A stretch of DNA of 64,000 nucleotides, taken from contig NZ_CP085041.1 in assembly GCF_022026155.1 (NCBI RefSeq), positions 1,830,306 to 1,894,305 on the forward strand, read 5' to 3'. The position numbers and the translations under genes are program-made. The DNA comes from Dissulfurimicrobium hydrothermale. GTDB taxonomy: Bacteria > Desulfobacterota > Dissulfuribacteria > Dissulfuribacterales > Sh68. Positions within the stretch are counted from its first letter, which is position 1, and every line of letters starts with the position of its first letter. This document shows positions 3,547 through 44,609 of the stretch, piece after piece. The notes below the pieces were generated by a model that saw only the letters and a list, made by a program, of their open reading frames with translations, searched no databases and was not told the DNA's origin.

Positions 3547-6096
3547 TCATAGCATATGCAACATCGTTTGTTCCAGGAACTTGTCAAAAAAGCGATCAAT
3601 GGATTCATCTGTAGCCATACGTACATCAAGCTGCCTTGTGAATGCGACAAGCTCACCAAGACGGGCCAATATGTACTCCATCTGGTCCGCTTCAAGCACC
3701 TTAGCCTTGCCCACTACAAGATCGCCGCGGCGCTCGACCCTGAAAAACAAGGCCTGAAGAACAGACTCTATGAGGACCGCCCTCCTCCTGCGCCTCTCCG
3801 CCTCTGCAAAACCGCCCACAAACCGAAAGTATATATAATTATTCTCAAGGTCCGGTGAGATATAGGAATCTATAACATTAAAGTGATAGCCGAGCCTGAG
3901 GCTTAGATTGCAATAACTATCCGCTATGATCGCAAGATTCTGGCCGCTGTATTCAGGCAGGTTGGCAAGGGCTGAGATCGGTCTGGAAAAGCTTGAAAGG
4001 ATATCTTTTATGCCCAACGGCACAGGCGTCCTATCCCATGCCCCTTCAGCAAGCAGTCCATCAAGTATGGCCCTGAACGGTCTGCTCCGTATCATCGAGA
4101 GTTCTATGCCCTTGTCACCGGCCTTGGGCTCAATCCCGCCACCCAGATCTATGACATTGATCGTGATAGGTATGGATACCAAAAGCGGAAAGGCTGGCGA
4201 CTTTGCAATGAACGACGTGGAAGATTGAAGATGGATCAAGGAATCCACCGCCTTTTCATGAGCAAAACGAAGGATGTCATGATAGGTCTTGCAATTTTCA
4301 GGCGTAAAATCAGGCGAGAGGGGATCGACCAGGTTCAGGGGGGCGATCCATCTAAGAAGCCTCCTGAGCGTACACGCCTCTCCAGACTCCAGAAAGACCT
4401 CCTCTGTTGCAGCCCGCACGTCTACAATGCCTTGGACCATACCGGCATATATGCGCCTGTCTTCAACATCCACAGTGACATCCATGCCTTCTTTCAAGAC
4501 AATGGTCGCGTCTCCAGTGCCTAAGAGCGCCGGGGTCCTGTACTCTCTGGCTATGGTTGCAAGATGCCCAGTAGGGCTGCCCACATCTGTGACGATTGCC
4601 GAGGCCTTGCGTATGATCGGGCTGAGCCTAGGGCTGGCGCTTTTACATACGGCTATGGCTCCTGCAGGGAAACTTGCAGGGTCATCATCCGGACTTACAT
4701 GCACCACCCGACCAGCGGCTATCCCGATCTGGGCCACCTGTCCCTTGCCCTCCATAAGCACAGGCAACCTCCTGAGCCTCGCCATGACATCGGCTGGCTG
4801 TACCGATGACACCGCCTTCAAATGTAACGGCCTGCTCTGGAGTATCACTAACGAATTCGAATCGTCCACGGCCCATTCAATATCCTGAGGTGCTCCAAAG
4901 GCCTTTTCAAGTGTCAGCGCAGCCTCTGCAATCATCTTTAGAAGCCCACCTGAAGCCACTGAAGAACCGCGCCTTAAACCGGAAGGCATGACTGAAAGCG
5001 GCAAATATCCGTCAGGGTGCACATCGAAAACAGGGCCACCCATGATCCTGCTTTCCAACGGTTGAAACGGATGGGTTCGTGAGATCAGGTGCCAATCAGG
5101 GTCAACCTCACCACTTACAAGTCGCTCACCAAGTCCATTGACCGCTGATACGGGCATGGCATCAATAAAAGGCCGAGACGGATCCCTGGTGTATACGATC
5201 CCGGAAATCCGAGCCGCCACCATCACCTGTATGCCGACGGCCACAGGGGCCTTTTCTTCATCAAGGGCCTCATCGCCCAGATATTCTAATACTTGCGGCG
5301 AAAAACGAGCAGCCATGACATCTTTGCAGGCGTTAAAAACATCGTCGGGATGAACGTTCAAGACGGTCTTGAACTGGCCGGCGAAGGTCCTCTCCCTGTC
5401 TTCTCCTATGGCGCTGCTCCTTACAGCAAGAAGCGCCTTGCGATCAAGACCCGCATAGAGTCTTTCAAGCCCCTCTTCAACAGCTAATTTAATGGCTTTT
5501 GGCACAACGGCCTTTTTAAAAAGCCCCCTGATCACTTCCCAGGCCCTTTCCGAACGCCTCTCATCTTCTATAACCCTCTCAATCCGTCGAAAGAGGTCGT
5601 TTTCGTCCATAAACAACCTGTATGCAGCGATTGTAAGGGCAAAACCCTTAGGCGTTTTCAGCCCCAAATGATTGCTAATTTCACCTAAATTGGCGTTTTT
5701 GGACCCGACTATCTGGTCGAGATCTCTGTCCAGGCAGGTGTAAGGCATTACGATCTGATCGCGATAAGGACCTGAGCCGCCCGCCATAATGTCTTCCAGG
5801 TTGTTTCTTATTGACTCGAAACTGTCATAAAGATCTATGTAGATATGGTTTGAAATGGAATTCAGGTTATGAATGATCTCTCTTATGATTTCACTCAATT
5901 CGGCTATAGACGCCGAGAGGAAGGCCTGATCGAAGAGATAGCCGCCGCCGAGCGTCTCTTCCATCCACCCTATTTTTTCCAGGGCCTTGTTGTTTAATTC
6001 AAGGATACGCCTAAAACGCCAAAAAGCACTTGATAAAAACAGATCTTGGGGGTTTTTTTGCGTCAAATCATCATGCTGCCTGGTTTCTGATGTCAT
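3547..6096 (-). CDS. PpsA-like PEP/pyruvate-binding protein, paralogue 2, with novel C-terminal domain
   Basis: An 849-residue paralogue with the same layout. The N-terminal helical region (about 24-105) includes FRRILELNNKALEKI and GGYLFD. The ATP-grasp domain is at about 118-425 (GSKNANLGEI at 131-140, AVRSSAIGEDR at 224-234, PQDIEWAV at 403-410). The phosphohistidine domain at about 445-550 has candidate His511 in GSPTGHLATIARE. The C-terminal domain runs from about 580 to 845 (YHDILRFAHEKAV, NVIDLGGG, GYHFNVIDS, YFRFVGG, RRRRRAVLIE). The PEP-synthase TIM barrel is absent. The phospho-acceptor His and ATP-site motifs are intact, so autophosphorylation is plausible; the downstream acceptor is unknown. 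It lies 5 bp after the sigma-54 activator gene. Confidence 0.8.
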   Translation of the reverse strand: MTSETRQHDDLTQKNPQDLFLSSAFWRFRRILELNNKALEKIGWMEETLGGGYLFDQAFLSASIAELSEIIREIIHNLNSISNHIYIDLYDSFESIRNNLEDIMAGGSGPYRDQIVMPYTCLDRDLDQIVGSKNANLGEISNHLGLKTPKGFALTIAAYRLFMDENDLFRRIERVIEDERRSERAWEVIRGLFKKAVVPKAIKLAVEEGLERLYAGLDRKALLAVRSSAIGEDRERTFAGQFKTVLNVHPDDVFNACKDVMAARFSPQVLEYLGDEALDEEKAPVAVGIQVMVAARISGIVYTRDPSRPFIDAMPVSAVNGLGERLVSGEVDPDWHLISRTHPFQPLESRIMGGPVFDVHPDGYLPLSVMPSGLRRGSSVASGGLLKMIAEAALTLEKAFGAPQDIEWAVDDSNSLVILQSRPLHLKAVSSVQPADVMARLRRLPVLMEGKGQVAQIGIAAGRVVHVSPDDDPASFPAGAIAVCKSASPRLSPIIRKASAIVTDVGSPTGHLATIAREYRTPALLGTGDATIVLKEGMDVTVDVEDRRIYAGMVQGIVDVRAATEEVFLESGEACTLRRLLRWIAPLNLVDPLSPDFTPENCKTYHDILRFAHEKAVDSLIHLQSSTSFIAKSPAFPLLVSIPITINVIDLGGGIEPKAGDKGIELSMIRSRPFRAILDGLLAEGAWDRTPVPLGIKDILSSFSRPISALANLPEYSGQNLAIIADSYCNLSLRLGYHFNVIDSYISPDLENNYIYFRFVGGFAEAERRRRRAVLIESVLQALFFRVERRGDLVVGKAKVLEADQMEYILARLGELVAFTRQLDVRMATDESIDRFFDKFLEQTMLHML

Positions 6097-6101
6097 AAAA
6101 C

Positions 6102-7502
6102 TCAGGCCTTGTGATCAGGCTTGTCAAGCAGATTGAGTTCACGCAGCCTCCGCCAAAGCGTCGTCCTCGAAATACCGAGTATCTTCGCCGTCTCGCTCTG
6201 ATTATAGCCCGTCCTCTGATATATACTTAAAATATGATCCTGCTCAAGGTGCTTCAATGTGTACCCTTCAGCCCTCAATACACCCGGATCTTTGGCTACA
6301 CAGAAAATATCAGGGGGTAGGTCGTTCGGCCCAAGTATCTTCCCACGGCTCAGGGCCACTGCCCTCTCCACTATATTCTCAAGCTCTCTGACGTTTCCTG
6401 GGAATGGATAGACCTCAAGAGGGGCCAAAAATTCTGACGAGACGCTGGTTATGGTCTTGTTAAACTTACGCCCGGCCTTGTCCACAAAATGATTCACCAA
6501 AGGCCTGATATCCTCCGGACGTTCCCTTAAGGGAGGTATCTCAATCATAACCACCTTCAGCCTGTAAAATAGATCCTGTCTGAATGCGCCCGCATCTATC
6601 ATCTTTACAATATCTCTGTTGGTTGCGGAGATGAAACGGACATCGAGGTCTATGAGCCGCACCCCGCCCACCCTGAGAAATGCCCTTTCTTGCAGCACCC
6701 TCAAAAATTTGACCTGCATGGAGAGCGGCATCTCCCCAACCTCATCCAAAAATACTGTACCGCCGTTAGCTGTTTCAAGAAGACCCAATTTTGTCGTGGC
6801 GGCACCGGTAAACGCCCCTTTTTCGTGGCCAAAGAGTTCGTTGGCCACCAAGTCTTCCGTGAACGCACCACAATTGAAAGAGACAAATGGAAAACCCGCC
6901 CTAAGGCTGTTTGCGTGAATGGCCCTTGCCACCAGCTCCTTACCCGTGCCGCTCTCTCCCTGGATAAACACGTTGCAATCCACGGCGGCCACCTGCGCGA
7001 TGGTCCTGAATATCTGACGCATCGCAGGCGAAACCCCGATTATGCCGCCGTAACTGCCGCATTTCTTGAGCTCTTTGTCGATCTGGCTCCTCCTGATGTT
7101 CTCGCGGACATGCTCCAAGGCATCTTTTACGACAGCTCGTAGGTTCTCAAGATGCAATGGCTTGGCAAGGTAATGAAATGCCCCTTTCTTTGTCGCCTCA
7201 ACTGCATGATCAATGGAGGCATAGCCAGTAATGATTATGATGGCCGCCTCGGGGCAGATCGCCTTGATCTGTCTCATAAGCTCTATCCCATCGGCATCCT
7301 TTAGCCTGACATCAACAATAACGACCTTTGGAAGCGCCTTTGGCATCGAGGCCATAGCATCTTTGGCCGATACAAAACCCTCAACCAGATATCCGTCTTT
7401 CCTGAGGGCCTGGATCAGGCGCTGCACAGTTATAGGCTCATCGTCTATAATAAAGATATCCATACATCTGTTATTATATTCATCCATAGCGACACGTTTC
7501 AC
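6102..7502 (-). CDS. NtrC-family sigma-54-dependent response regulator
   Basis: A 466-residue enhancer-binding protein. Receiver domain at about 14-130 (IIDDE, phospho-acceptor Asp64 in VIVDVRLK, Lys of AKPL). AAA+ sigma-54 interaction domain at about 152-390 with Walker A GESGTGKE (182-189), the sigma-54-contacting GAFTGA loop (229-234) and FLDEVGEMPL. Fis-type helix-turn-helix at the C-terminus (NQSETAKILGISRTTLWRRL). It should activate sigma-54 RNA polymerase when phosphorylated by the kinase encoded just upstream; the genes overlap as GTGA. Start is uncertain: GTG 7502, ATG 7487 or ATG 7463 (MDIFIIDDE). A perfect sigma-54 promoter heads this same operon, so autoregulation is likely. Confidence 0.92.
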   Translation of the reverse strand: MKRVAMDEYNNRCMDIFIIDDEPITVQRLIQALRKDGYLVEGFVSAKDAMASMPKALPKVVIVDVRLKDADGIELMRQIKAICPEAAIIIITGYASIDHAVEATKKGAFHYLAKPLHLENLRAVVKDALEHVRENIRRSQIDKELKKCGSYGGIIGVSPAMRQIFRTIAQVAAVDCNVFIQGESGTGKELVARAIHANSLRAGFPFVSFNCGAFTEDLVANELFGHEKGAFTGAATTKLGLLETANGGTVFLDEVGEMPLSMQVKFLRVLQERAFLRVGGVRLIDLDVRFISATNRDIVKMIDAGAFRQDLFYRLKVVMIEIPPLRERPEDIRPLVNHFVDKAGRKFNKTITSVSSEFLAPLEVYPFPGNVRELENIVERAVALSRGKILGPNDLPPDIFCVAKDPGVLRAEGYTLKHLEQDHILSIYQRTGYNQSETAKILGISRTTLWRRLRELNLLDKPDHKA

Positions 7503-8932
7503 GACCAGAGCGGGAGTTCGACTTCGAAGACAGACCCATGCCCAGGTTCACTCTTTACCACTATCTCTCCCTTGTGTTCTTTTATGATGCCATAACTTAC
7601 AGACAAACCCAAGCCGGTTCCGTCGGCCTTCGTGGTAAAAAACGGCTCGAACATGTGCTCTTTCACATCTTGTGGTATACCAGGGCCCGTATCCGATATC
7701 TCTACTACTGCCTTACCTTTTTTATCAAGCGAAGAGACTTTGACACCCAAGACGCCGCCGTTCTTCATGGCCTGGAGGGCATTTAATATTATATTTACAA
7801 AAACCTGCTGCAATTGACCGGGATTCCCCATTATCGGCACAGACGTCTCGGGCATATCGATCTTGGTCTCGATCCCGCTCAACTTCACCTGATTCTTAAG
7901 CAAAGCAAGCGTATTGTTGAGAAGACCGACTAGATCGACCTTGATCCATGCCATAGGCCTCCTTGATCTTGAAAAATCCAAGAGATTCCTGACGATCTCG
8001 CGAGCGCGGTCCACCTGTACGATTATATCACGGATCATACCGCGCCTCTCGTCACAATCCATGTTGGCAAGATCTTCCATCAACACCTCGGCGGTAAGCG
8101 AGATATTGTTCAACGGGTTGTTTATTTCATGCGCAATACCGGCTGTCACCTTGCCGAGCGCGGCAAGCTTCTCGGCCTGGATAAGCTGCTGATGTTTATC
8201 TGAAAGCGCCTTTATCATACCATTCAGGACATTAATGAGCTCGGTACATTCAATGCATGCACCAGTCGATTCGGCGGGTATGGTTGCAATCTCCCCCTTC
8301 ATCACCTTGGCCACGGAGCTCCTTATATGCAGAAGCGGTGCCATGATCCAATTGGTAAGAAATATACCGAGCCCAATGCAGACTGGAAAGGCGGTGACCA
8401 ATAGCGCCAATGCCACGGCCTTATAGTGCAGGGCGTCTCTTTCTACGCGCTTTTTGGCCAGACCGTCTATACCCATGACACACTTCATTAAGGCGTGGCC
8501 GTGCTGCCTGAGTCTATTCTTCAAATTGTCGACATCATGCTGTGCAAGGTTGGGACTAATAAACTGCCGCATCAGATTTGAATAGGCCTCAATCTCAACC
8601 TGGCATGCGCTGCCTGCAAACCGGCCAGACGGATATGGGATGAGGCCGAAAGATTCCATGGACGCAAGGGCTGACCTTACCTCATCAAGTTCATCAAGGG
8701 CCAACATGAGATTTGCCGTATTTTCATAGAGCAAAAAATTTTTTTCGTGCGAACGAACCTCAAATATCTTCTGATTCAACTCATAAAATGACTCTATGAT
8801 GCGCATCTTGTCTTCCACCCTGTAAAGGGCATAAATCGCAGCGGCGGCAGCAAAGCCACTCAGGACAAAGATGACGAAAAAACTTAAGATCAGCTTACCC
8901 TTGATGGTCTTTGGAGGCCTTAAGAAAGACAA
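7499..8932 (-). CDS. membrane sensor histidine kinase (HAMP, HisKA, HATPase)
   Basis: A 477-residue sensor kinase. First membrane segment at about 13-35, a periplasmic helical sensor at about 36-168 containing RSHEKNFLLYE, second membrane segment at about 170-195, then a HAMP-like linker. The HisKA dimerisation helix carries His268 in GIAHEINNPLNN. The HATPase_c domain follows, with the N box (NIILNALQAM) and G boxes (DTGPGIP, GTGLGLSV). It probably phosphorylates the NtrC-type regulator (overlapping gene downstream) and/or the single-receiver protein upstream. The R..EKN..LY sensor motif recurs in the AT-rich kinase at 21.8 kb. The signal is unknown. Confidence 0.9.
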   Translation of the reverse strand: MSFLRPPKTIKGKLILSFFVIFVLSGFAAAAAIYALYRVEDKMRIIESFYELNQKIFEVRSHEKNFLLYENTANLMLALDELDEVRSALASMESFGLIPYPSGRFAGSACQVEIEAYSNLMRQFISPNLAQHDVDNLKNRLRQHGHALMKCVMGIDGLAKKRVERDALHYKAVALALLVTAFPVCIGLGIFLTNWIMAPLLHIRSSVAKVMKGEIATIPAESTGACIECTELINVLNGMIKALSDKHQQLIQAEKLAALGKVTAGIAHEINNPLNNISLTAEVLMEDLANMDCDERRGMIRDIIVQVDRAREIVRNLLDFSRSRRPMAWIKVDLVGLLNNTLALLKNQVKLSGIETKIDMPETSVPIMGNPGQLQQVFVNIILNALQAMKNGGVLGVKVSSLDKKGKAVVEISDTGPGIPQDVKEHMFEPFFTTKADGTGLGLSVSYGIIKEHKGEIVVKSEPGHGSVFEVELPLWS

Positions 8933-34763: not shown

Positions 34764-36899
34764 ATGGAAAACGGCCAATTGACTTGGATCACCAATTTCA
34801 TCTGGGGCATCGCCAACGATGTGCTGCGCGACCTCTACGTGCGCGGCAAGTACCGTGACGTCATTCTCCCGATGACGGTGCTGCGGCGTCTCGATGCGGT
34901 GCTGGAGCCCACCAAGCAGGCGGTGCTCGACATGAAGGCATCGCTCGACAAGTCAGGGATCGTGCACCAGGAAGCTGCCCTGCGACAGGCCGCCGGTCAA
35001 GCCTTCTATAACACCTCCCCCTTCACGCTACGCGACCTCAAGGCGCGTGCCAGCCGCCAGCAACTGGAGGCGGATTTTCGCGCCTACCTGGATGGCTTCT
35101 CGCCCAACGTGCAGGAGATCATCGACAACTTCGAGTTCCGCAACCAAATCCCCCGCCTGGCCAAAGCCGACGCCCTGGGCACGCTCATCGAGAAGTTCCT
35201 CGACCCGTCCATCAACCTAAGTCCCTACCCTGTGCGGGGCAGCGACGGCACCGTCCGGCTACCCGGCCTCGACAATCATGCCATGGGCACCATCTTCGAG
35301 GAGCTGGTGCGCCGCTTCAACGAAGAGAACAACGAGGAGGCCGGCGAACACTGGACCCCACGGGACGCCGTGAGGCTGATGGCCCGCCTGATCTTTGAGC
35401 CAATCGCCAACCAGATCGAATCCGGCACCTACCTGCTCTACGACGGCGCCTGCGGCACCGGCGGGATGCTCACGGTGGCCGAGGAAACCCTGTTGCAACT
35501 GGCGAAAGAGCGTGGCAAACAGGTCTCGGTGCATCTTTTCGGCCAGGAGATCAACGCCGAGACCTACGCCATCTGCAAAGCCGACCTTTTGCTCAAGGGC
35601 GAGGGCGATGCTGCTGACAACATCGTCGGCGGACCGGAGCATTCGACCCTCTCCAACGACGCCTTCCCCGGCCGCACCTTCGACTTCATGCTCTCCAATC
35701 CGCCCTACGGGAAGAGTTGGAAGAGCGACCTGGAACGCATGGGCGGCAAGGCTGGCATCAGGGACCCGCGCTTTGTCGTGCAGCACCGGCCTGCCTGCCG
35801 CGCAGAGCACGGCGCAGGCAGGGGCGAGGAGCTCTCGCTCGTCACCCGCGTGAGCGACGGCCAGATGCTGTTCCTGGTGAACATGCTCTCCAAGATGAAG
35901 CACGACACCCCGCTCGGCAGTCGCATCGCCGAGGTGCACAACGGCTCGTCGCTGTTTACGGGGGACGCCGGCCAGGGCGAGAGCAACATCCGCCGCTGGA
36001 TCATCGAGAACGACTGGCTCGAGGCGATCGTCGCCCTGCCGCTCAACATGTTCTACAACACCGGTATCGCCACCTACGTCTGGGTGCTCACGAACCGCAA
36101 GCCCGAGCACCGCAAAGGCCGCGTGCAGCTCATCGACGCCACGCAGTGGTACAAGCCCCTGCGCAAAAACCTGGGCAAGAAGAACTGCGAGCTGTCCGAA
36201 GAGGACATCCGCCGCATTGTTGATACCTTCCTCAAATTCGAGGAGACCGACCTGCCTGCCGCGCAAGCCGATAGCGCAGCGCAGGCAGGGCAGTCCAAGA
36301 TCTTTCCCAACGCGGCCTTTGGTTACTGGAAGGTGACGGTGGAGCGCCCCCTGCGCCTGAAAGGCATCGCCCCCGAGCGCGCCTACACCCCCAAGGAGAT
36401 CAAGGCGCTTCGGGAAACGGCCGAGCGCGCCGAAGATGCGCCGCCGGTGATCAAGAAAATCCACAAACCTGGCACCGCGCCCGATCCGCTGCGCGGCCTG
36501 TTCGAGGTTACCATTCACGGCAAGCCGCGCGTGGTGGAGTACGAGCCGGACACCGAACTGCGCGATACCGAGCAGATCCCCTTCCTCGAATGCCCGGCCT
36601 GCCATCAACCGGGCTACTTGCCGAGCCTGGAAGACCAGCGCACGGCCATCGAGACCTTCCTGCGCCGCAAGGTCCTGCCCTATGCGGCGGACCTGCCTGC
36701 GCCGTGCTCGCCGCGGCAGGCAGGTGCCTGGTACGACCCAGCGAGCGTCAGGATCGGCTACGAGATCAGCTTCAACCGCTACTTTTACAAGCCAAAGGCC
36801 CTGCGGTCTCTGAAAGAAATCCGCGCGGATCTTCTGGCGGTGGAGCAGGAGGCGGAAGGGTTGTTGGTGGAGATTTTGGGGGGAACGAAACATGAATAA
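34764..36899 (+). CDS. hsdM: type I restriction-modification DNA methyltransferase subunit M
   Basis: A 711-residue N6-adenine methyltransferase. The N-terminal helical domain (WGIANDVLRDLYVRGKYRDV) is followed by the SAM-binding fold with EHWTPRDAVRLM, motif I-like GACGTGGMLTVAEE and the catalytic NPPY (LSNPPYGKSWK). With HsdS it methylates the recognition site; with HsdR it forms the restriction complex. A good AGGAGGAAGG site precedes the ATG. Three 33-39-base palindromic sequences lie inside it, each adding about 10-14 residues in frame relative to the pattern I remember for relatives. Base composition is clearly GC-richer than outside the island. Its stop lies inside the start of the next gene (8-base overlap). 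Confidence 0.95.
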   Translation: MENGQLTWITNFIWGIANDVLRDLYVRGKYRDVILPMTVLRRLDAVLEPTKQAVLDMKASLDKSGIVHQEAALRQAAGQAFYNTSPFTLRDLKARASRQQLEADFRAYLDGFSPNVQEIIDNFEFRNQIPRLAKADALGTLIEKFLDPSINLSPYPVRGSDGTVRLPGLDNHAMGTIFEELVRRFNEENNEEAGEHWTPRDAVRLMARLIFEPIANQIESGTYLLYDGACGTGGMLTVAEETLLQLAKERGKQVSVHLFGQEINAETYAICKADLLLKGEGDAADNIVGGPEHSTLSNDAFPGRTFDFMLSNPPYGKSWKSDLERMGGKAGIRDPRFVVQHRPACRAEHGAGRGEELSLVTRVSDGQMLFLVNMLSKMKHDTPLGSRIAEVHNGSSLFTGDAGQGESNIRRWIIENDWLEAIVALPLNMFYNTGIATYVWVLTNRKPEHRKGRVQLIDATQWYKPLRKNLGKKNCELSEEDIRRIVDTFLKFEETDLPAAQADSAAQAGQSKIFPNAAFGYWKVTVERPLRLKGIAPERAYTPKEIKALRETAERAEDAPPVIKKIHKPGTAPDPLRGLFEVTIHGKPRVVEYEPDTELRDTEQIPFLECPACHQPGYLPSLEDQRTAIETFLRRKVLPYAADLPAPCSPRQAGAWYDPASVRIGYEISFNRYFYKPKALRSLKEIRADLLAVEQEAEGLLVEILGGTKHE
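35790..35822 (+). repeat. palindromic mini-element copy 1 inside hsdM
   Basis: 33 bases bounded by CCTGCCTGC and GCAGGCAGG, perfect nine-base inverted arms. It encodes the extra residues PACRAEHGAGR between two conserved methyltransferase blocks (RFVVQH and LSLVTRVSDGQM). It reads nearly as the reverse complement of copy 3. Confidence 0.75.
36251..36289 (+). repeat. palindromic mini-element copy 2 inside hsdM
   Basis: 39 bases with the same nine-base arms CCTGCCTGC / GCAGGCAGG and a centre six bases longer than in copies 1 and 3. It encodes about LPAAQADSAAQAG between FEETD and QSKIFPNAAFGYW. The six-base difference keeps the frame. Confidence 0.75.
36692..36724 (+). repeat. palindromic mini-element copy 3 inside hsdM
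   Basis: 33 bases with arms CCTGCCTGC / GCAGGCAGG. Its centre GCCGTGCTC matches the reverse complement of copy 1, so the two are the same element in opposite orientation. It encodes LPAPCSPRQAG just before the conserved WYDPASVRIGYEISF. Confidence 0.75.
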
Positions 36900-39693
36900 G
36901 CCGATCTGGCCCTATCCCGGCTCGCGCTGGTGGAAGTTCGACTTCCACACCCATACGCCGGCATCAAGAGATACGTACTGGGCGAGAAACAACATTAATC
37001 TGTCGCCAGAAGAGTGGTTACTCGAGTACATGCGCGCCGAGATCGATTGCGTGGCCGTTACGGATCATAATAGCGGGGCGTGGATCGACGATCTCAAAAA
37101 GGCCTATGCGAATATGAAGGCGCAAGCCGAAGCCGGCAACCCGCCCGAAGGCTTCCGCAAGTTGACAATCTTCCCAGGAGTGGAAATCTCAGTACAGGGC
37201 GGCATTCATCTATTGGCGATTTTCGAACCTGACGCCAAGACCGGCGACATCGATACATTGCTTGGCAAAGTGGACTACAATGGTTCCAAAGGCGACAGCG
37301 ACGGCGTTACCAGGAAAGGTATCGCAGCGGTTTTAGAAGCCATTTTAGAAAGTGGAGCTATTCCCATCCCTGCACATGCAGATGCAGACAAGGGTTTGCT
37401 GGCTGTTAGACCTGGCACCCAGAAAAGTCGCATTGATGCAAACACCGTTCGCCAAGCGCTGGATGTAGAGGGCGTTCTCGCTGTGGAATGGGTCGATTCG
37501 AATAAGAAGGACTATCTCACTTGCGTAAAAAAACAAGCCAAGAAACTCACGAGAATACTCGGTAGCGACTGCCACACCTTTCATGGCAACGCAGTCCCCG
37601 GCAGCCGCTACACCTGGGTCAAGATGGCCAAGCCCACGCTGGATGGCCTAAGGCTTGCGCTGCTGGATGGGAACGGCGTTTCGATCCGCCGCAGTGACGA
37701 GGGCACGTTCGACCCCTTCAAGACACCCGCTCATTTCATCACTGCTATTGAGATTGGCAGTGCCCGCTATATGGGAAACGGTCAGGCCGAGCGGATCGAG
37801 CTTACACCTTTCTACAACGCCCTGATCGGTGGGCGTGGAACCGGAAAATCCAGCTTCGTTCACGCCTTGCGCCTGGCCTATGGACGCAACGACGAGCTGA
37901 ACAGCCTAAGCGGCAATGCAGAGCCTTTGCGTCAATTCGAATCCTTCCGCAAGGTGCCTAAAGCGCGCGATGACGAAGGTGCGCTACGTGTGGAGACCGA
38001 GATTTGTGCGGAGCTAATGCGCGAAGGGCAACTGTCCAGGCTACGCTGGCAGAACCCCGGATCACCACAAATCATAGTCGAAGAGAAGGACGCGAACGGG
38101 ACTTGGTGCGAGTCAGGAAGCCAGGCTGTTAATCCCGAGCGCTTCCCAATCCGCCTTTTCTCCCAGGGCCAGATTGCGGCCATGGCGGGTGAAAGCCGTC
38201 AAGCGCTCCTGTCCGTGATCGACGAGGCAGCCCAGGTCGGAAAACTCAAACGAGAATTTGAAGAGGAAAAACGCAGCTTTCTCACCCAGCGGGCGCGCCT
38301 TCGCGAGCTGGAAGGAAAGCTTGCCGACCGTCACGAGGTAGAACGAAGGTTACATGAGGTGGTTAGGAAACTCGACGCTTTTGCCCAGGCACATCATGCC
38401 GAGGTCCTGAAGGCCCATGCGCATGCCCAGAATCAGCGAAGAGAGGTCGAGCAACTCCTTAAACAAATGCACGCGCTGCCTGAGCGGATTGAAGATGTCG
38501 CGCGAGACCTCATCCTTGACGACTGGTCTTCTGGCGTTTTTGATGACGCGAGTGATGCGGACGTACTTGAGTGGCGCAAGAAGGCAGATGACGCCGTGCA
38601 GCAAGTGCGGCAAGCCCTTGAGCAAGCAAGCAGTGCCTTGGCCGAAAATGCGCGACTGCTCGAACAAGACCCACTGCTCGCCGTCTGGCGTAAGCGCACC
38701 GACAAGGCTCAGGCAGATTTCGAAGACTTGCAGAAATCCTTGGCCGCGCAAGGCGTGAACGACCCACAAGCCTTCGGACAGCTGGTGCAGGAGCGTCAGT
38801 ACCTCGAGGCACAGCTCAAGCGCCTCGATCAGATCAAGGCAGAGCGGGACACGCTCGAAGAGGCGATCGCCGCGCAATGGCAAAAAGTCGTGGAAGCGCG
38901 CGAGGCCATCACGTCAACGCGAGCAGAATTCGTCAAGAAAACGCTGGACGGCAATCCCTACGTGCGCATCGAAGTCGTGCCTTTCGGCTTCGACGCGCGT
39001 GTAATCGAGCGCAGCCTGCGCGAGCTTCTCGAGGCCACGGATGATCGGTTCGAAAACGACATCTTGGCGATGGCCGCGGCGGGCAATCCCACGGGTGGCC
39101 TGGCCTTCAAGATCGCCCAAGCAGATGACCGCAAGGCAGCTCTGGATAGTTCAAAGAAACAACTGCAGACAATCGCAGATGCATTTGGCGGCCACTTCAA
39201 GAACTACCTCAAAAAGAAACTGGAGAGGCCTGAGTTTGCCGACCACATCCAATGCTGGTTCCCCGAAGACGATCTGCGCATCCAGTACAGTCGCAGGGCC
39301 GACGGCACCGACTGGGCGGCCCTCACCCAGGGATCGCAGGGCCAGCGCTCGGCGGCACTGCTTGCTTTCTTGCTCGCGTTCGGCGAGGAACCTTTGGTTC
39401 TTGACCAGCCCGAGGACGATCTGGACAATCATTTGATTTACGACCTCATCGTCCGCCAAATCCGCGAAAGCAAGCTGCGCCGGCAACTCGTCATCGTAAC
39501 TCACAATCCCAATATCGTTGTCAACGGCGACGCTGAGCTGGTGCACGTGCTCGACTTTCGAGGCGGGCAATGCCGTGTGGTCGAGCGCGGTGCACTTCAG
39601 GAGAACTCGGTACGCGAAGAGGTCTGCCGCGTGATGGAAGGCGGGCGCGACGCCTTCGAGCGGCGCTGGAAGCGCCTGGGAAGGAGGGTGTGA
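36892..39693 (+). CDS. TrlF-like PHP-domain AAA/SMC-type ATPase
   Basis: A 933-residue protein placed between hsdM and hsdS. The N-terminal PHP phosphoesterase-like domain is at about 14-260 (DFHTHTPASRD, AVTDHNSGAW, GVEISVQGGIHLLAIF, PAHAD, GSDCH). Then an ABC/SMC-like ATPase head with Walker A GGRGTGKSSF (about 313-322), a long coiled coil (about 440-700), and the second half of the head with the signature-like QGSQGQRSA and Walker B PLVLDQPEDDLDN. This is the layout of TrlF-family ATPases seen inside type I restriction operons. A nuclease-linked anti-phage role is inferred. It starts inside hsdM and ends 1 base before hsdS. Confidence 0.85.
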   Translation: MNKPIWPYPGSRWWKFDFHTHTPASRDTYWARNNINLSPEEWLLEYMRAEIDCVAVTDHNSGAWIDDLKKAYANMKAQAEAGNPPEGFRKLTIFPGVEISVQGGIHLLAIFEPDAKTGDIDTLLGKVDYNGSKGDSDGVTRKGIAAVLEAILESGAIPIPAHADADKGLLAVRPGTQKSRIDANTVRQALDVEGVLAVEWVDSNKKDYLTCVKKQAKKLTRILGSDCHTFHGNAVPGSRYTWVKMAKPTLDGLRLALLDGNGVSIRRSDEGTFDPFKTPAHFITAIEIGSARYMGNGQAERIELTPFYNALIGGRGTGKSSFVHALRLAYGRNDELNSLSGNAEPLRQFESFRKVPKARDDEGALRVETEICAELMREGQLSRLRWQNPGSPQIIVEEKDANGTWCESGSQAVNPERFPIRLFSQGQIAAMAGESRQALLSVIDEAAQVGKLKREFEEEKRSFLTQRARLRELEGKLADRHEVERRLHEVVRKLDAFAQAHHAEVLKAHAHAQNQRREVEQLLKQMHALPERIEDVARDLILDDWSSGVFDDASDADVLEWRKKADDAVQQVRQALEQASSALAENARLLEQDPLLAVWRKRTDKAQADFEDLQKSLAAQGVNDPQAFGQLVQERQYLEAQLKRLDQIKAERDTLEEAIAAQWQKVVEAREAITSTRAEFVKKTLDGNPYVRIEVVPFGFDARVIERSLRELLEATDDRFENDILAMAAAGNPTGGLAFKIAQADDRKAALDSSKKQLQTIADAFGGHFKNYLKKKLERPEFADHIQCWFPEDDLRIQYSRRADGTDWAALTQGSQGQRSAALLAFLLAFGEEPLVLDQPEDDLDNHLIYDLIVRQIRESKLRRQLVIVTHNPNIVVNGDAELVHVLDFRGGQCRVVERGALQENSVREEVCRVMEGGRDAFERRWKRLGRRV

Positions 39694-39769
39694 AATGTTT
39701 ACGACACCCAGAGAATTGATCGACAAAAACCCCTCTCTAGAGGGACTACCAAGAAACACTGGCCTGAAG

Positions 39770-40487
39770 CCCTACCCCGCCTACAAAGACTCCGGCGTGG
39801 AGTGGCTCGGCCAGGTGCCGGAGCATTGGGAGGTGGTGGCCGGGCGTACGGTGTTTCGTCAAATCAATGACCGTGGTCATCCTGACGAGCAGATGCTGTC
39901 GGTAACCATCACACGCGGCGTACTGCGTCAGGCAGACTTGCTCGCGGACAGTTCCAAGAAAGACTCCTCGAACGAGGACAAGTCCAACTACAAACTCGTT
40001 CAACCGGGTGACCTGGTGTACAACAAAATGCGTGCCTGGCAGGGGGCGGTGGGCGTCTCGGCTTACCGGGGGATCGTGAGCCCGGCTTACATCGTCCAGC
40101 GGCTAAGGAGCGCCGAGAACTTGCCCCGCTACATGCACTTTCTTCTTCGTACACCCCTTTTCGCTTCGGAGGCCGAGCGATGGTCGTATGGCATCACTTC
40201 GGATCAGTGGAGTCTGCGAGCAGAAGAATTCAAGTGTATCTACTTCTCACTTCCCCCCCCTCTCCGAACAAACCGCCATCGTCCGCTTCCTCGATTACAT
40301 GGACCGGCGGGTTCGGCGCTACATCCGCGCCAGGCAGAAACTGATCAAACTGCTGGAGGAGTACAAGCAGGCCCTCATCCACCGCGCCGTCACCGGGCAG
40401 ATCGATGTCCGCACCGGCAGGCCCTATCCGGCCTACAAGCCCTCCGGCGTGGAGTGGCTGGGCCAGGTGCCGGCGCATTGGGAGGTG
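39770..40487 (+). repeat. internal direct repeat of hsdS (39770-39835 and 40422-40487)
   Basis: Two 66-base segments, nearly identical, encode YPAYKxSGVEWLGQVPxHWEV at the start of each target-recognition domain, 652 bases apart. Such repeats are normal in hsdS and can serve as sites for domain-exchange recombination. Confidence 0.8.
40253..40260 (+). repeat. C8 homopolymer at the hsdS frameshift
   Basis: Eight C in a row after TT, exactly where the hsdS frame breaks. Seven C would restore a continuous protein. Confidence 0.85.
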
Positions 40488-41004
40488 CGACGGCTGAAAA
40501 CGATATGCAGAATGAAGGCTGGAGAAAACATCACTAACCAGTCAATCGAACCATCAGGCGATTTCCCAGTTTACGGCGGTAATGGAATTCGAGGTTACAC
40601 GTCTGGCTTCACTCATCAAGGTGAATTCATATTGATTGGTCGCCAGGGGGCGCTGTGTGGCAATGTCCATCTGGTCCAAGGGCGATTTTGGGCTTCTGAG
40701 CACGCTGTCGTTGTTTCACCCTATGGTGGTCACGACCTTCAGTGGTTTGCTGGATTACTCCAGGCCATGAACTTGAATCAATATTCGATGGCGGCTGCGC
40801 AACCCGGACTTTCAGTTGAGCGTGTTCTGAATCTCTGGGCACCAGTACCGCCTGCTGAAGAGCAAAGGCGCATTGCTGAATATGCCATGTTCGCCACGTC
40901 GCGGATTAGGAGCGCCATTGCCGCCGCTCGCCGCGAAATCGAACTTCTGCGCGAATACCGCGAGCGCTTGATTGCCGATGTGGTCACCGGCAAGGTGGAT
41001 GCGA

Positions 41005-41039
41005 GAAGTGTGAAGTGTGAAGGGGGAAGTGTGAATGAG
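41005..41039 (+). repeat. AAGTGTGAA repeat at the 3' end of hsdS
   Basis: GAAGTGTGAAGTGTGAAG followed by GGGGAAGTGTGAATGAG. It encodes RSVKCEGGSVNE directly after the usual HsdS terminus (VVTGKVDAR), creating the tail. The same peptide pattern recurs inside hsdR. Confidence 0.7.
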
Positions 41040-41143
41040 GAAAATGAGCAAGGAGAGATGGAGTGGGAATCGCAAAATGAGGATGACGAAGCGGAGGATG
41101 AACTCGAAGGAGAGATGCGCGAGGCTGACACGGACGAGGGGGT

Positions 41144-41512
41144 ATGATGGAAAAGCCCACGAACATTCAGGAACGAGCGTTTGATTTCGCGGTGCGTGTG
41201 GTGAAGCTGTGCATCCACTTGGACGGTCAACCCGGTGTTCCGCGAACCCTGTCAAACCAGTTGTTGCGCTCGGGAACCGCAATTGGCGCAAATCTGGAAG
41301 AAGGCATCGGCGCTCAATCCGAAGCAGACTATCTGACCAAAGTCTCCATCGCCTGCAAAGAGGCCCGCGAAACGCTCTTCTGGCTCAAGTTGCTGGCCGC
41401 AACAGAGATCGTGCCGCAGGACCGTCTGGCTGGAATCACCGATGAATGCAATCAACTCGTCGCCATTCTTACGGCGACGGCCAAACATCTAAAGGAGCGG
41501 CGCCATGGCTAA
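41144..41512 (+). CDS. four-helix-bundle protein (S23/IVP-like)
   Basis: A 122-residue all-helical protein of the TIGR02436 type, recognised by the opening ERAFDFAVRVVKLC and LLRSGTAIGANLEEGIGAQSEADYLTKVSIACKEARET. These proteins often sit inside restriction-modification or 23S-rRNA intervening contexts; their role in restriction operons is unknown. The start ATGATG overlaps the hsdS stop, and its end overlaps the hsdR start by 8 bases, so it is translated as part of the hsd operon. Confidence 0.85.
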   Translation: MMEKPTNIQERAFDFAVRVVKLCIHLDGQPGVPRTLSNQLLRSGTAIGANLEEGIGAQSEADYLTKVSIACKEARETLFWLKLLAATEIVPQDRLAGITDECNQLVAILTATAKHLKERRHG

Positions 41513-44500
41513 TCACACTTCACACTTCACACCGCACACTTCACACTTTTCGGAAACCAGCGAAGCCGGGCTTGAAACCCTGATCTGCCGGACGCTCACG
41601 GGCAGTGACTGCACGCCCCGGCCTGCCGGTTCCTCGGCGGTCCTGGCCGAGGCGACGGCGTCCTACGGGGGTGTGGGTTGGCTCCCCGGCGATCCGTCCG
41701 ATTACGACCGGGAGTACTGCGTCGATCTGGTTCAGCTTACGGCCTTTCTGCGTTCGACGCAACCGGAGGTTGCCGATGCGCTCGATCTCAACAACGACAG
41801 CCCCACGCGGCGCAAGTTTCTGGCGCGCCTCCAGGGCGAGGTGAGCAAGCGCGGGGTGGTGGACGTATTGCGCAATGGGATTCAGCACGGGCCTTACCGC
41901 ATCGAGCTCTTCTACGGCACGCCTTCCCCCGGAAACGAGCAAGCGCGGGCGCTCTATGAGCAGAACCGCTTCACCGTCACGCGCCAGCTCCGCTATAGCC
42001 GCGACGAGACGCAGCGGGCGCTGGATTTGGTGCTCTTTATCAACGGCTTACCGGTTTTCACCTTCGAGCTCAAAAACCGCCTCACCAAACAGACGGTGCA
42101 TGACGCCATCGAGCAGTACAGGCGCGACCGCAACCCGCGCGAGAAGCTATTTGAATTGGGCCGCTGCGTGGCGCACTTCGCCGTGGACGAAAACGAGGTG
42201 TGGTTCTGTACGCACCTTGCGGGCAAGGCGTCTTGGTTTCTGCCTTTTAACAAGGGATGGAACGACGGCGCGGGCAATCCTCCCAATCCGCAGGGGCTCA
42301 AGACCGATTACCTCTGGCGGGAGATACTCACCCGCGAGAGCCTGACCGACATCCTTGAAAACTACGCCCAACTCGTTGAGGAGAAAGACCTCAAGACCGG
42401 CAAGAAACGGCGACGGCAGATCTTCCCCCGCTATCACCAGCTCGACGTGGTGCGAAAACTTTTGGCGGACGCGGCGGCGCACGGCGCAGGGCGGCGGTAT
42501 CTCATCCAGCATTCCGCCGGCAGCGGCAAGTCCAACTCCATCGCCTGGCTGGCGCATCAGTTCGTAAGAAGTGTGAAGGGTGAAGTGGGAAGTGTGAAAA
42601 AAACCGAGCATTCACCCATCACCCCTCACACTTCACACTTCATTTTCGATTCCATTATCGTAGTGACCGACCGGCGCATCCTGGACCAGCAGATCCGGGA
42701 CACGGTCAAGCAGTTTGCCCAGGTGAGCGCCACGGTGGGGCACGCTGAGCATTCCGGCGACCTGCGGCGCTTCATCGAGGGCGGCAAGAAGATCATCATC
42801 ACGACGCTGCAGAAGTTCCCGTTCATCCTCGACGAAATTGGCAACGAGCACTGCGGGCGCCGTTTTGCGATCATCATTGACGAGGCGCATTCGAGCCAGG
42901 GTGGCCGCACGGCAGCGAAGATGCACCAGGCGCTGGCAGGGATGGACGACGAGGAAGACGAGACCTTCGAAGACCAGATCAACCGGCTGATGGAGGCCCG
43001 AAAGCTGCTGCCGAACGCCAGCTACTTTGCCTTCACCGCCACCCCGAAGAACAAAACGTTGGAGATGTTTGGTGAACCCGACCCGCAGCCCGACGGCACG
43101 GTGAAGCACCGGCCGTTTCATAGCTACACCATGAAACAGGCCATTCAAGAAGGGTTCATCCTGGATGTGCTGGCCCACTATACACCGGTCAAGAGCTACT
43201 ACAAGCTCATCAAGAAAATCGAGGACGATCCCGAATTCGACGTCAAAAAGGCGCAGAAGAAGCTGTGCCGCTTCGTCGAGGGGCACGAGTACGCCATCCG
43301 GCTCAAGGCTGAGATCATGGTAGACCACTTTCATGAGCAGGTGATCGCCAAAGGCAAGATCGGCGGCCAGGCGCTGGCCATGGTGGTGACCGGCGGCATC
43401 GAGCGCGCGATCCAGTACTTCGATGCGATCCAGGACTATCTCAAGGAGCGTAAAAGCCCCTACCGTGCCATCGTGGCCTTCTCGGGTGAGCACGAGTATG
43501 GCGGTCAACAGGTCACCGAGGCCAGCCTTAACGGCTTTCCATCGAACCAGATCGCCGACAAGATCCGGGAGGACCCGTACCGGTTTTTGATCTGCGCCGA
43601 CAAGTTCCAGACCGGCTATGACGAGCCGCTCCTGCACACGATGTACGTGGACAAGGTGCTCTCCGGGGTCAAGGCGGTGCAGACCCTTTCGCGCCTCAAC
43701 CGCGCCCACCCTCAGAAGCACGACACCTTCGTCCTCGATTTCGTCAACGACCCGGAGACGATCCGGAAGGACTTCGAGCCCTACTACCGGACCACCATCC
43801 TCGCCGACGAAACCGACCCCAACAAGCTACACGATCTTAAGGCCGACCTTGACGGCTATCAGGTGTACGCGCCTGAGCAAGTCGATGAACTGGTGCGGCT
43901 CTACCTGAGCGACGCCGACCGCGACCAGCTCGACCCGATCCTTGACGCCTGCGTCGCCGCCTACCTGGAGCAGCTCGACAAGGACGGTCAAATCGACTTC
44001 AAGGGCAAAGCCAAGGCGTTTCTGCGCACCTATAATTTTCTGGCTTCGATTCTCCCCTACACTAACGCCGCGTGGGAGAAGCTATCGATCTTCCTCGAGT
44101 TCCTGGTGCCCAAGCTGCCGGCACCCAAAGAGAAAGACCTCTCCAAAGGTATCCTCGAGGCGATCGACATGGACAGCTACCGGGTCGAAAAGCAGGCGAC
44201 TATAAGGATCGCGCTTCCCGATGCGAATGCCGAGATCGAACCGGTGCCCACTGTGGGTGGTGGACACAAAGCCGAGCCGGAGCTGGACCGGCTTTCGAAC
44301 ATCATCCAGACCTTTAACGACCTGTTTGGCAACATTGTCTGGACCGACGCCGACCGGGTGCGCAAACTGATCACCGAGGAGATTCCCGCACGCGTCGCAG
44401 CCGACACCGCCTACCAGAACGCATGTAAGTATTCTGACAAGCAGAATGCCCGTATCGAGCACGACAGGGCCCTTGCTCGGGTCATCACCGCCCTACTCAA

Positions 44501-44609
44501 GGATGACACCGAGCTGTTTAAGCAGTTTAGCGACAATGAGTCGTTCCGTCGCTGGCTGATTGATACGGTATTCGCATTGACCTACACCGAACCTGGCACC
44601 GCGGGGTAG
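41505..44609 (+). CDS. hsdR: type I restriction endonuclease subunit R
   Basis: A 1034-residue translocase-nuclease. The N-terminal nuclease domain holds LDLVLFINGLPVFTFELKN (PD-(D/E)xK core). The SF2 motor has Walker A SAGSGKSNS, DEAH in IIIDEAHSSQGG, FAFTATPKNKTLEMFG, and TGYDEPLLHTMYVDK with VQTLSRLNRAH. The C-terminal helical region binds the methylase complex. With HsdM and HsdS it pumps and cuts unmethylated DNA. Two unusual additions: the N-terminus NHTSHFTPHTSHFS, and about 26 residues (RSVKGEVGSVKKTEHS, PITPHTSHF) between motif I and FDSIIVVTDRRIL. Both are encoded by AAGTGTGAA-type repeats, in frame. Confidence 0.95.
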   Translation: MANHTSHFTPHTSHFSETSEAGLETLICRTLTGSDCTPRPAGSSAVLAEATASYGGVGWLPGDPSDYDREYCVDLVQLTAFLRSTQPEVADALDLNNDSPTRRKFLARLQGEVSKRGVVDVLRNGIQHGPYRIELFYGTPSPGNEQARALYEQNRFTVTRQLRYSRDETQRALDLVLFINGLPVFTFELKNRLTKQTVHDAIEQYRRDRNPREKLFELGRCVAHFAVDENEVWFCTHLAGKASWFLPFNKGWNDGAGNPPNPQGLKTDYLWREILTRESLTDILENYAQLVEEKDLKTGKKRRRQIFPRYHQLDVVRKLLADAAAHGAGRRYLIQHSAGSGKSNSIAWLAHQFVRSVKGEVGSVKKTEHSPITPHTSHFIFDSIIVVTDRRILDQQIRDTVKQFAQVSATVGHAEHSGDLRRFIEGGKKIIITTLQKFPFILDEIGNEHCGRRFAIIIDEAHSSQGGRTAAKMHQALAGMDDEEDETFEDQINRLMEARKLLPNASYFAFTATPKNKTLEMFGEPDPQPDGTVKHRPFHSYTMKQAIQEGFILDVLAHYTPVKSYYKLIKKIEDDPEFDVKKAQKKLCRFVEGHEYAIRLKAEIMVDHFHEQVIAKGKIGGQALAMVVTGGIERAIQYFDAIQDYLKERKSPYRAIVAFSGEHEYGGQQVTEASLNGFPSNQIADKIREDPYRFLICADKFQTGYDEPLLHTMYVDKVLSGVKAVQTLSRLNRAHPQKHDTFVLDFVNDPETIRKDFEPYYRTTILADETDPNKLHDLKADLDGYQVYAPEQVDELVRLYLSDADRDQLDPILDACVAAYLEQLDKDGQIDFKGKAKAFLRTYNFLASILPYTNAAWEKLSIFLEFLVPKLPAPKEKDLSKGILEAIDMDSYRVEKQATIRIALPDANAEIEPVPTVGGGHKAEPELDRLSNIIQTFNDLFGNIVWTDADRVRKLITEEIPARVAADTAYQNACKYSDKQNARIEHDRALARVITALLKDDTELFKQFSDNESFRRWLIDTVFALTYTEPGTAG
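41513..41548 (+). repeat. TCACACTT repeat at the 5' end of hsdR
   Basis: Four TCACACTT-type units, with a break at ACCGCAC, form codons 3-14 of hsdR (HTSHFTPHTSHF). It is the reverse-complement orientation of the repeat ending hsdS. Confidence 0.7.
42568..42641 (+). repeat. palindromic AAGTGTGAA element inside hsdR
   Basis: A 74-base element with 11-base perfect inverted ends GAAGTGTGAAG / CTTCACACTTC. The left part carries forward repeats, the right part (TCACCCATCACCC, then CACACTTCACAC) reverse ones. It could fold into one long imperfect hairpin. It is inserted in frame in the helicase domain. Confidence 0.75.

Follow-up and report, generated by a model that had tools for sequence, protein, structure and literature searches.

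The heptamer repeats that lie in frame in the hsdS and hsdR genes of a type I R-M operon of Dissulfurimicrobium hydrothermale are likely to be parts of a mobile-element-like cassette, which consists of a gene of the PF05635 family (23S_rRNA_IVP or S23; here, the IVP gene), tandem heptamers on its upstream side and an inverted set of the same heptamers downstream. The best reading is that this cassette is related to the intervening sequences (IVS) of rRNA and has MITE-like derivatives that survive in frame. In particular, one cassette would have come to sit at the hsdS-hsdR junction of an imported operon, where its arrays would have turned into part of the HsdS tail and of the HsdR N-terminus. 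In the motor domain of HsdR, a gene-less, MITE-like palindrome of the same heptamer would have taken the place of a short linker. The cassette would move using host or other enzymes, and the IVP protein would recognize its own heptamer array, either in DNA or in RNA folded into a stem.

Repeats of the hsd operon and the gene between them

The window (the whole stretch of DNA that was analysed, 64,000 nucleotides) contains 12 matches to AAGTGTGAAGTGTGA with up to two mismatches, and every one of them lies within 41006-42640. In 100 dinucleotide shuffles of the window, the mean number of matches is 0.06 and the maximum is 1. An earlier note, made from the letters of this DNA, had placed the repeat at the 3' end of hsdS, at the 5' end of hsdR and, as a palindrome, inside hsdR, and all three positions are confirmed (Table 1). 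The note had also reported recurring in-frame peptides, and the translations of the three copies agree with it: DARSVKCEGGSVN in HsdS, MANHTSHFTPHTSHF at the start of HsdR and RSVKGEVGSVKK...TPHTSHF in the HsdR loop. A repeat family that is read in frame is therefore borne out. Its unit, previously taken to be a 9-mer, is the heptamer AAGTGTG together with T-to-G variants. The palindrome is built of two arms around a 12-nt centre.

Table 1. Heptamer arrays and genes at the hsdS-hsdR junction (window positions)
Feature	Position	Strand	Details
hsdS 3' part, host gene of left array	40188..41147	+	PF01420
Left heptamer array GAAGTGTGAAGTGTGAAGGGGGAAGTGTGAA	41005..41035	+	In-frame HsdS stretch RSVKCEGGSVN
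hsdS acidic C-terminal tail, left array to IVP start	41036..41147	+	Acidic tail also ends homologues
122-aa four-helix-bundle gene, PF05635 (23S_rRNA_IVP / S23)	41144..41512	+	E 3e-18
hsdR, host gene of right array and palindrome	41505..44609	+	PF04313, PF18766 and others
Right heptamer array, inverted relative to left	41513..41548	-	In-frame HsdR residues HTSHFTPHTSHF
Gene-less palindrome in hsdR, left arm	42568..42598	+	Peptide RSVKGEVGSVK
Gene-less palindrome in hsdR, right arm	42611..42641	-	Peptide SPITPHTSHF

A third gene, which is absent from the earlier note, lies between the first two copies. Its 122-aa frame matches PF05635 with 66.4 bits (cut-off 33.8) and overlaps both neighbours, the hsdS stop at its start and the hsdR start at its end. 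The protein resembles PDB entries 2RLD and 2GSC (XCC0516) in sequence, entries whose names state no function, and its solved relatives are pentamers. Because this gene lies between them, the hsdS array and the array at the 5' end of hsdR are better understood as a pair of inverted ends belonging to one unit than as the separate insertions proposed before. The third copy is best taken for a palindrome that shares the heptamer family of the cassette ends and has no gene.

Measured against known classes of mobile DNA, terminal inverted repeats (the mark of IS elements and DNA transposons) are present around the IVP gene, and the gene-less stretch at 42568-42641 has termini in common with the gene-carrying stretch at 41005-41548, as MITE-like elements do. 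No transposase was found in the cassette, where the 122-aa ORF matches PF05635 only and the rest of the coding sequence that the arrays enclose belongs to the hsdS tail; nor does the cassette hold a nuclease gene. One feature of this locus counts against a cassette: the left array ends 108 bp 5' of the IVP start, a distance at the upper limit of what is usual, and sequence resembling an hsdS tail lies in between.

The operon has further peculiarities. A C8 tract at 40253-40260 divides hsdS into overlapping frames (39695-40537 and 40188-41147), which may mean that the gene varies in phase by slippage, that it is dead or that the sequence contains an error. A 933-aa ATPase (AAA_21 and SMC-like matches) is encoded at 36892-39693, between hsdM and hsdS. 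Within hsdM, a GC-rich repeat family (ACCGGCCTGCCTGCCGCGCA ... AGCACGGCGCAGGCAGG) occurs at 35785-35823, 36246-36290 and 36692-36724; two of its copies are 94% complementary to one another, and it is probably the other in-frame palindromic family of the earlier note.

Homologues of the host genes lack the repeats. The repeat is absent from the hsdR loci fetched from the phylum. At RSVKGEVGSVKKTEHSPITPHTSHF of the window HsdR, relatives of 67-81% identity show about 8 residues (e.g. GLERENAP), which link the Walker A helix to the strand FDSIIVV; these relatives are without both inserts. The third copy had been assigned to an interdomain loop; it sits instead within the motor domain, after the Walker A helix and before the strand that follows. 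The predicted HsdR structure places the insert in a coil between helix 342-354 and strand 383-388 (mean pLDDT 50, a hint of secondary structure only). The palindrome replaces the 8-residue linker, and this is a replacement rather than a clean insertion. At three loci (L016, L017 and L018) hsdS and hsdR follow directly on each other, an IVP gene being absent, and HsdS has the acidic tail at its end without the SVKCEGGSVN stretch. The comparison with hsdR genes lacking the repeat that the earlier note had called for thus yielded such genes, and hsdS homologues lack it as well.

The GC content of the operon is 59.3%, against 49-51.5% on either side, and no close hsdR relative was found among the few genomes of the same order that were sampled. 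Because of these two observations, the operon was probably acquired horizontally, its repeats along with it, and the donor origin suggested previously holds up to this extent. A genome-wide count, which had also been proposed, returned no AAGTGTG-type repeat (up to one mismatch) outside the operon in the whole 2.03-Mb host genome. The exact 15-mer is present in 6 of 395 genomes of the phylum (the host counted), with 15 copies in one of them; no IVP gene stands next to the copies examined. The outcome that would have told against the earlier note (a repeat absent from every other genome, with its residues kept in all homologues) is not what was found. What survives of its interpretation is the in-frame family, missing from homologues, in an operon that looks imported; two separate insertions are not supported.

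A period-7 array runs through three phases, so that the same seven codons appear in every frame, and the heptamer peptides are KCEV*SV on one strand and HTSHFTL on the other. An array therefore survives in frame easily: none of the frames of the TTCACAC strand contains a stop, and in both forward copies of the window (hsdS and hsdR) a T-to-G unit stands where the recurrent TGA would otherwise fall in frame. Nor is such survival unique to HsdR, since gene-less arrays and palindromes lie in other reading frames. These include NYELRITNYEL in L112 and heptamer palindromes that, as in HsdR, yield forward and reverse peptides: GTGDWGLGTGN...PIPSTQYPVPN in L102 (2029-2095) and ESVKWKVESVKW...LHFTLYTLHS in L150 (3439-3646).

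Period-7 arrays beside PF05635 genes

The arrangement seen in the hsd operon recurs around the gene family at large. PF05635 genes were drawn from the phylum, from 80 named genomes of many phyla and from viral contigs, and arrays were scored within 300 bp at the 102 cellular loci with enough flank. Period-7 arrays stand upstream of 50 of the 102 genes, downstream of 65, on at least one side of 75 and on both sides of 40, and each of the periods 3-6 and 8-12 gives 0-2. At 1.1-1.5 kb from the genes the count of period-7 arrays is 6-7, in shuffled flanks it is 0, and control pieces of same-phylum hsdR loci contain one in 1 of 431 cases. On viral contigs, arrays lie upstream of 12 and downstream of 14 of the 19 PF05635 genes.

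The two flanks of a PF05635 locus are inverted copies of one another: the longest exact inverted match between a locus's own flanks averages 14.7 nt, compared with 9.5 nt for direct matches and 8.6 nt for matches with another locus. The heptamer sequence varies between loci and partly follows the relatedness of the IVP proteins. A Mantel test of heptamer composition against protein distance gives r 0.355 (highest value in 2000 permutations 0.10), and the correlation is seen between phyla too, with r 0.25 for different-phylum pairs only (largest of 1000 permutations 0.14). A stricter rule, that all IVPs at least 55% identical share GAAG heptamers, proved too strong (9/14, against 13/63 below 50% identity; Fisher p 0.002). 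A specific association of IVP genes with R-M loci was also dropped; they have neighbours of several kinds (methyltransferases, ATP synthase, PmbA/TldD and others).

Growth of arrays in place by slippage, their nearness to IVP genes being coincidental or due to a shared build-up in relaxed regions, is very unlikely as the whole explanation. Array lengths do differ between relatives, and in many bacteria no other long simple repeats are as over-represented as heptamers (PMC4692102, PMC4679880). Slippage, however, is unable to make inverted copies across a gene, and it explains neither the concentration beside PF05635 genes nor the tracking of heptamer and protein across phyla.

The cassette reading has its own difficulties. 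At the threshold used, 27 of the 102 loci have no period-7 array, and gene-less single arrays are common elsewhere. Such arrays and palindromes in other genomes, the gene-less hsdR palindrome and the phylum relative with 15 exact 15-mers would fit a view along the lines of the earlier note, in which independent REP-like palindromes inserted three times in the hsd operon of a repeat-rich donor; the IVP gene would then be an unrelated passenger. We consider this quite unlikely: the hsdS and hsdR 5' arrays are single, point in opposite directions and flank a member of a gene family that is arranged likewise in most other genomes.

The host genome has a second IVP gene, which adjoins another R-M or restriction-type locus. 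Its nearest arrays are direct, not inverted, which counts against a cassette. Their heptamer is of the GAGTTAT type, unlike AAGTGTG; the repeat therefore belongs to the unit and not to the host. At this second locus (L226, G000:C1:309000-325000, about 4775-8079), the IVP gene is shortened and comes right after a 997-aa frame.

Occupied sites, possible mobility and predicted RNA folding

Sites in other genomes bear on whether the cassette moves. In Nostoc plasmids it lies within a gene for a DNA cytosine methyltransferase. Two relatives have this gene intact; the copy with the cassette is about 115 codons short. Members of the Anabaena/Dolichospermum group carry one and the same cassette in other contexts, its right boundary coinciding with the end of the heptamer array, and the right flank is found without the cassette in two relatives. 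Since relatives either lack the insert or carry the cassette elsewhere, we infer that it is mobile. At the compared sites, sequence has been replaced or rearranged (8 residues of HsdR and about 115 of the Nostoc methyltransferase); none of them displayed a target-site duplication, and no clean empty site was found among the compared relatives. Dolichospermum G409 was rejected as an empty site, as a different palindromic repeat occupies the same junction with no clean boundary, and G402 was rejected as a clean site because an expanded array there contains a run of N.

Related observations come from the same organisms. In a DISARM-like operon of the Dolichospermum group (L112, L222), the same junction is occupied by an IVP cassette in one genome and by an unrelated GGATTAAAGGATGTACAGGATG palindrome in another, and the proteins neighbouring it carry several in-frame NYELRITNYEL stretches. 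In G402:C1, from the genus group of L112, one heptamer array is present in many copies genome-wide.

The element could alternatively be defined by RNA processing and not by DNA mobility, the arrays folding into a stem around the IVP gene that RNase III cuts, as in the 23S rRNA IVS. There is a precedent in Coxiella burnetii, whose 23S rRNA IVS combines an S23p ORF with GACAGAT heptamers; its termini form a 28-bp stem, which RNase III cleaves (PMC4990558). A stem is predicted around the IVP gene of the hsd operon (561 nt, -205 kcal/mol, z -2.85), the hsdR palindrome gives a strong predicted hairpin (131 nt, z -3.95), and IVP genes are mostly co-oriented with their neighbours (upstream 63/78, downstream 58/77). 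Folding is expected of any inverted repeat, however, and the site is not rRNA. In addition, cleavage of the hsdR hairpin would break an essential message, and the arrival of copies at new sites is left unexplained. As a complete account, RNA processing is unlikely. We rank a DNA-mobile cassette above an RNA-only intervening sequence because of the gene-less hsdR palindrome and the differing sites, and both of these readings stand far above slippage alone. Folding and cleavage are compatible with the mobile cassette as an additional property of it.

Relation to known systems

Several known systems share parts of this anatomy. Avd of diversity-generating retroelements has an S23-like fold; no reverse transcriptase of such an element is among the Pfam matches of the hsd operon. 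As with MITEs and REPIN-type palindromes, which have a partner gene acting in trans, a gene-less palindrome shares its termini with a nearby gene-carrying unit, but here the termini are tandem heptamers that differ by locus, and the unit is without a transposase or RAYT gene. Heptanucleotide repeats have been described in cyanobacteria and Xanthomonas (STRR; GGGAATC and GGGGA(C/T)T; PMC4692102) and in Beggiatoaceae (TAACTGA; PMC4679880). They are likewise tandem 7-mers, some in inverted pairs and some within reading frames. In the accessible parts of these papers no link to an IVP/S23 gene is drawn, whereas the hsd arrays are the inverted flanks of one. No paper linking heptamer arrays to IVP/S23 genes generally was found in the open literature, to which the search was confined; earlier work on the link may exist in subscription journals.

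That mirrored heptamers are usual around PF05635 genes suggests a widespread, little-noticed kind of mobile DNA. A broader proposal, which we put forward tentatively and hold to be somewhat less probable than its opposite, is that PF05635/S23 proteins are the repeat-recognition factors of widespread, undescribed heptamer-ended cassettes, with an own heptamer for each clade. The 23S rRNA IVS would be a specialized case of these, and scattered arrays and palindromes, both intergenic and in protein loops (of the HTSHF, NYELRITNYEL and SVKWKV types), would be their non-autonomous offspring. The link to the arrays gives the S23/IVP four-helix-bundle genes, which are common and structurally solved, a concrete candidate ligand and role. 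It also ties rRNA intervening sequences to scattered heptanucleotide repeats that are usually ascribed to slippage, and points to a source of in-frame loop insertions in proteins.

The closest likeness is with the 23S rRNA IVS, which has a PF05635/S23-type ORF of about 120 codons, complementary termini that form a long stem and tandem heptamers near the ORF. The hsd cassette shows the PF05635 frame and the complementary, stem-forming termini, and lacks the insertion in an rRNA helix. It lies in a protein operon, between hsdS and hsdR, instead of in rRNA helix 9, 25 or 45, and it has arrays on both sides as well as a gene-less palindromic relative in coding sequence. The nearest known kind is the rRNA intervening sequence, of which the cassette is a variant that lies outside rRNA and follows a general rule of heptamer ends.
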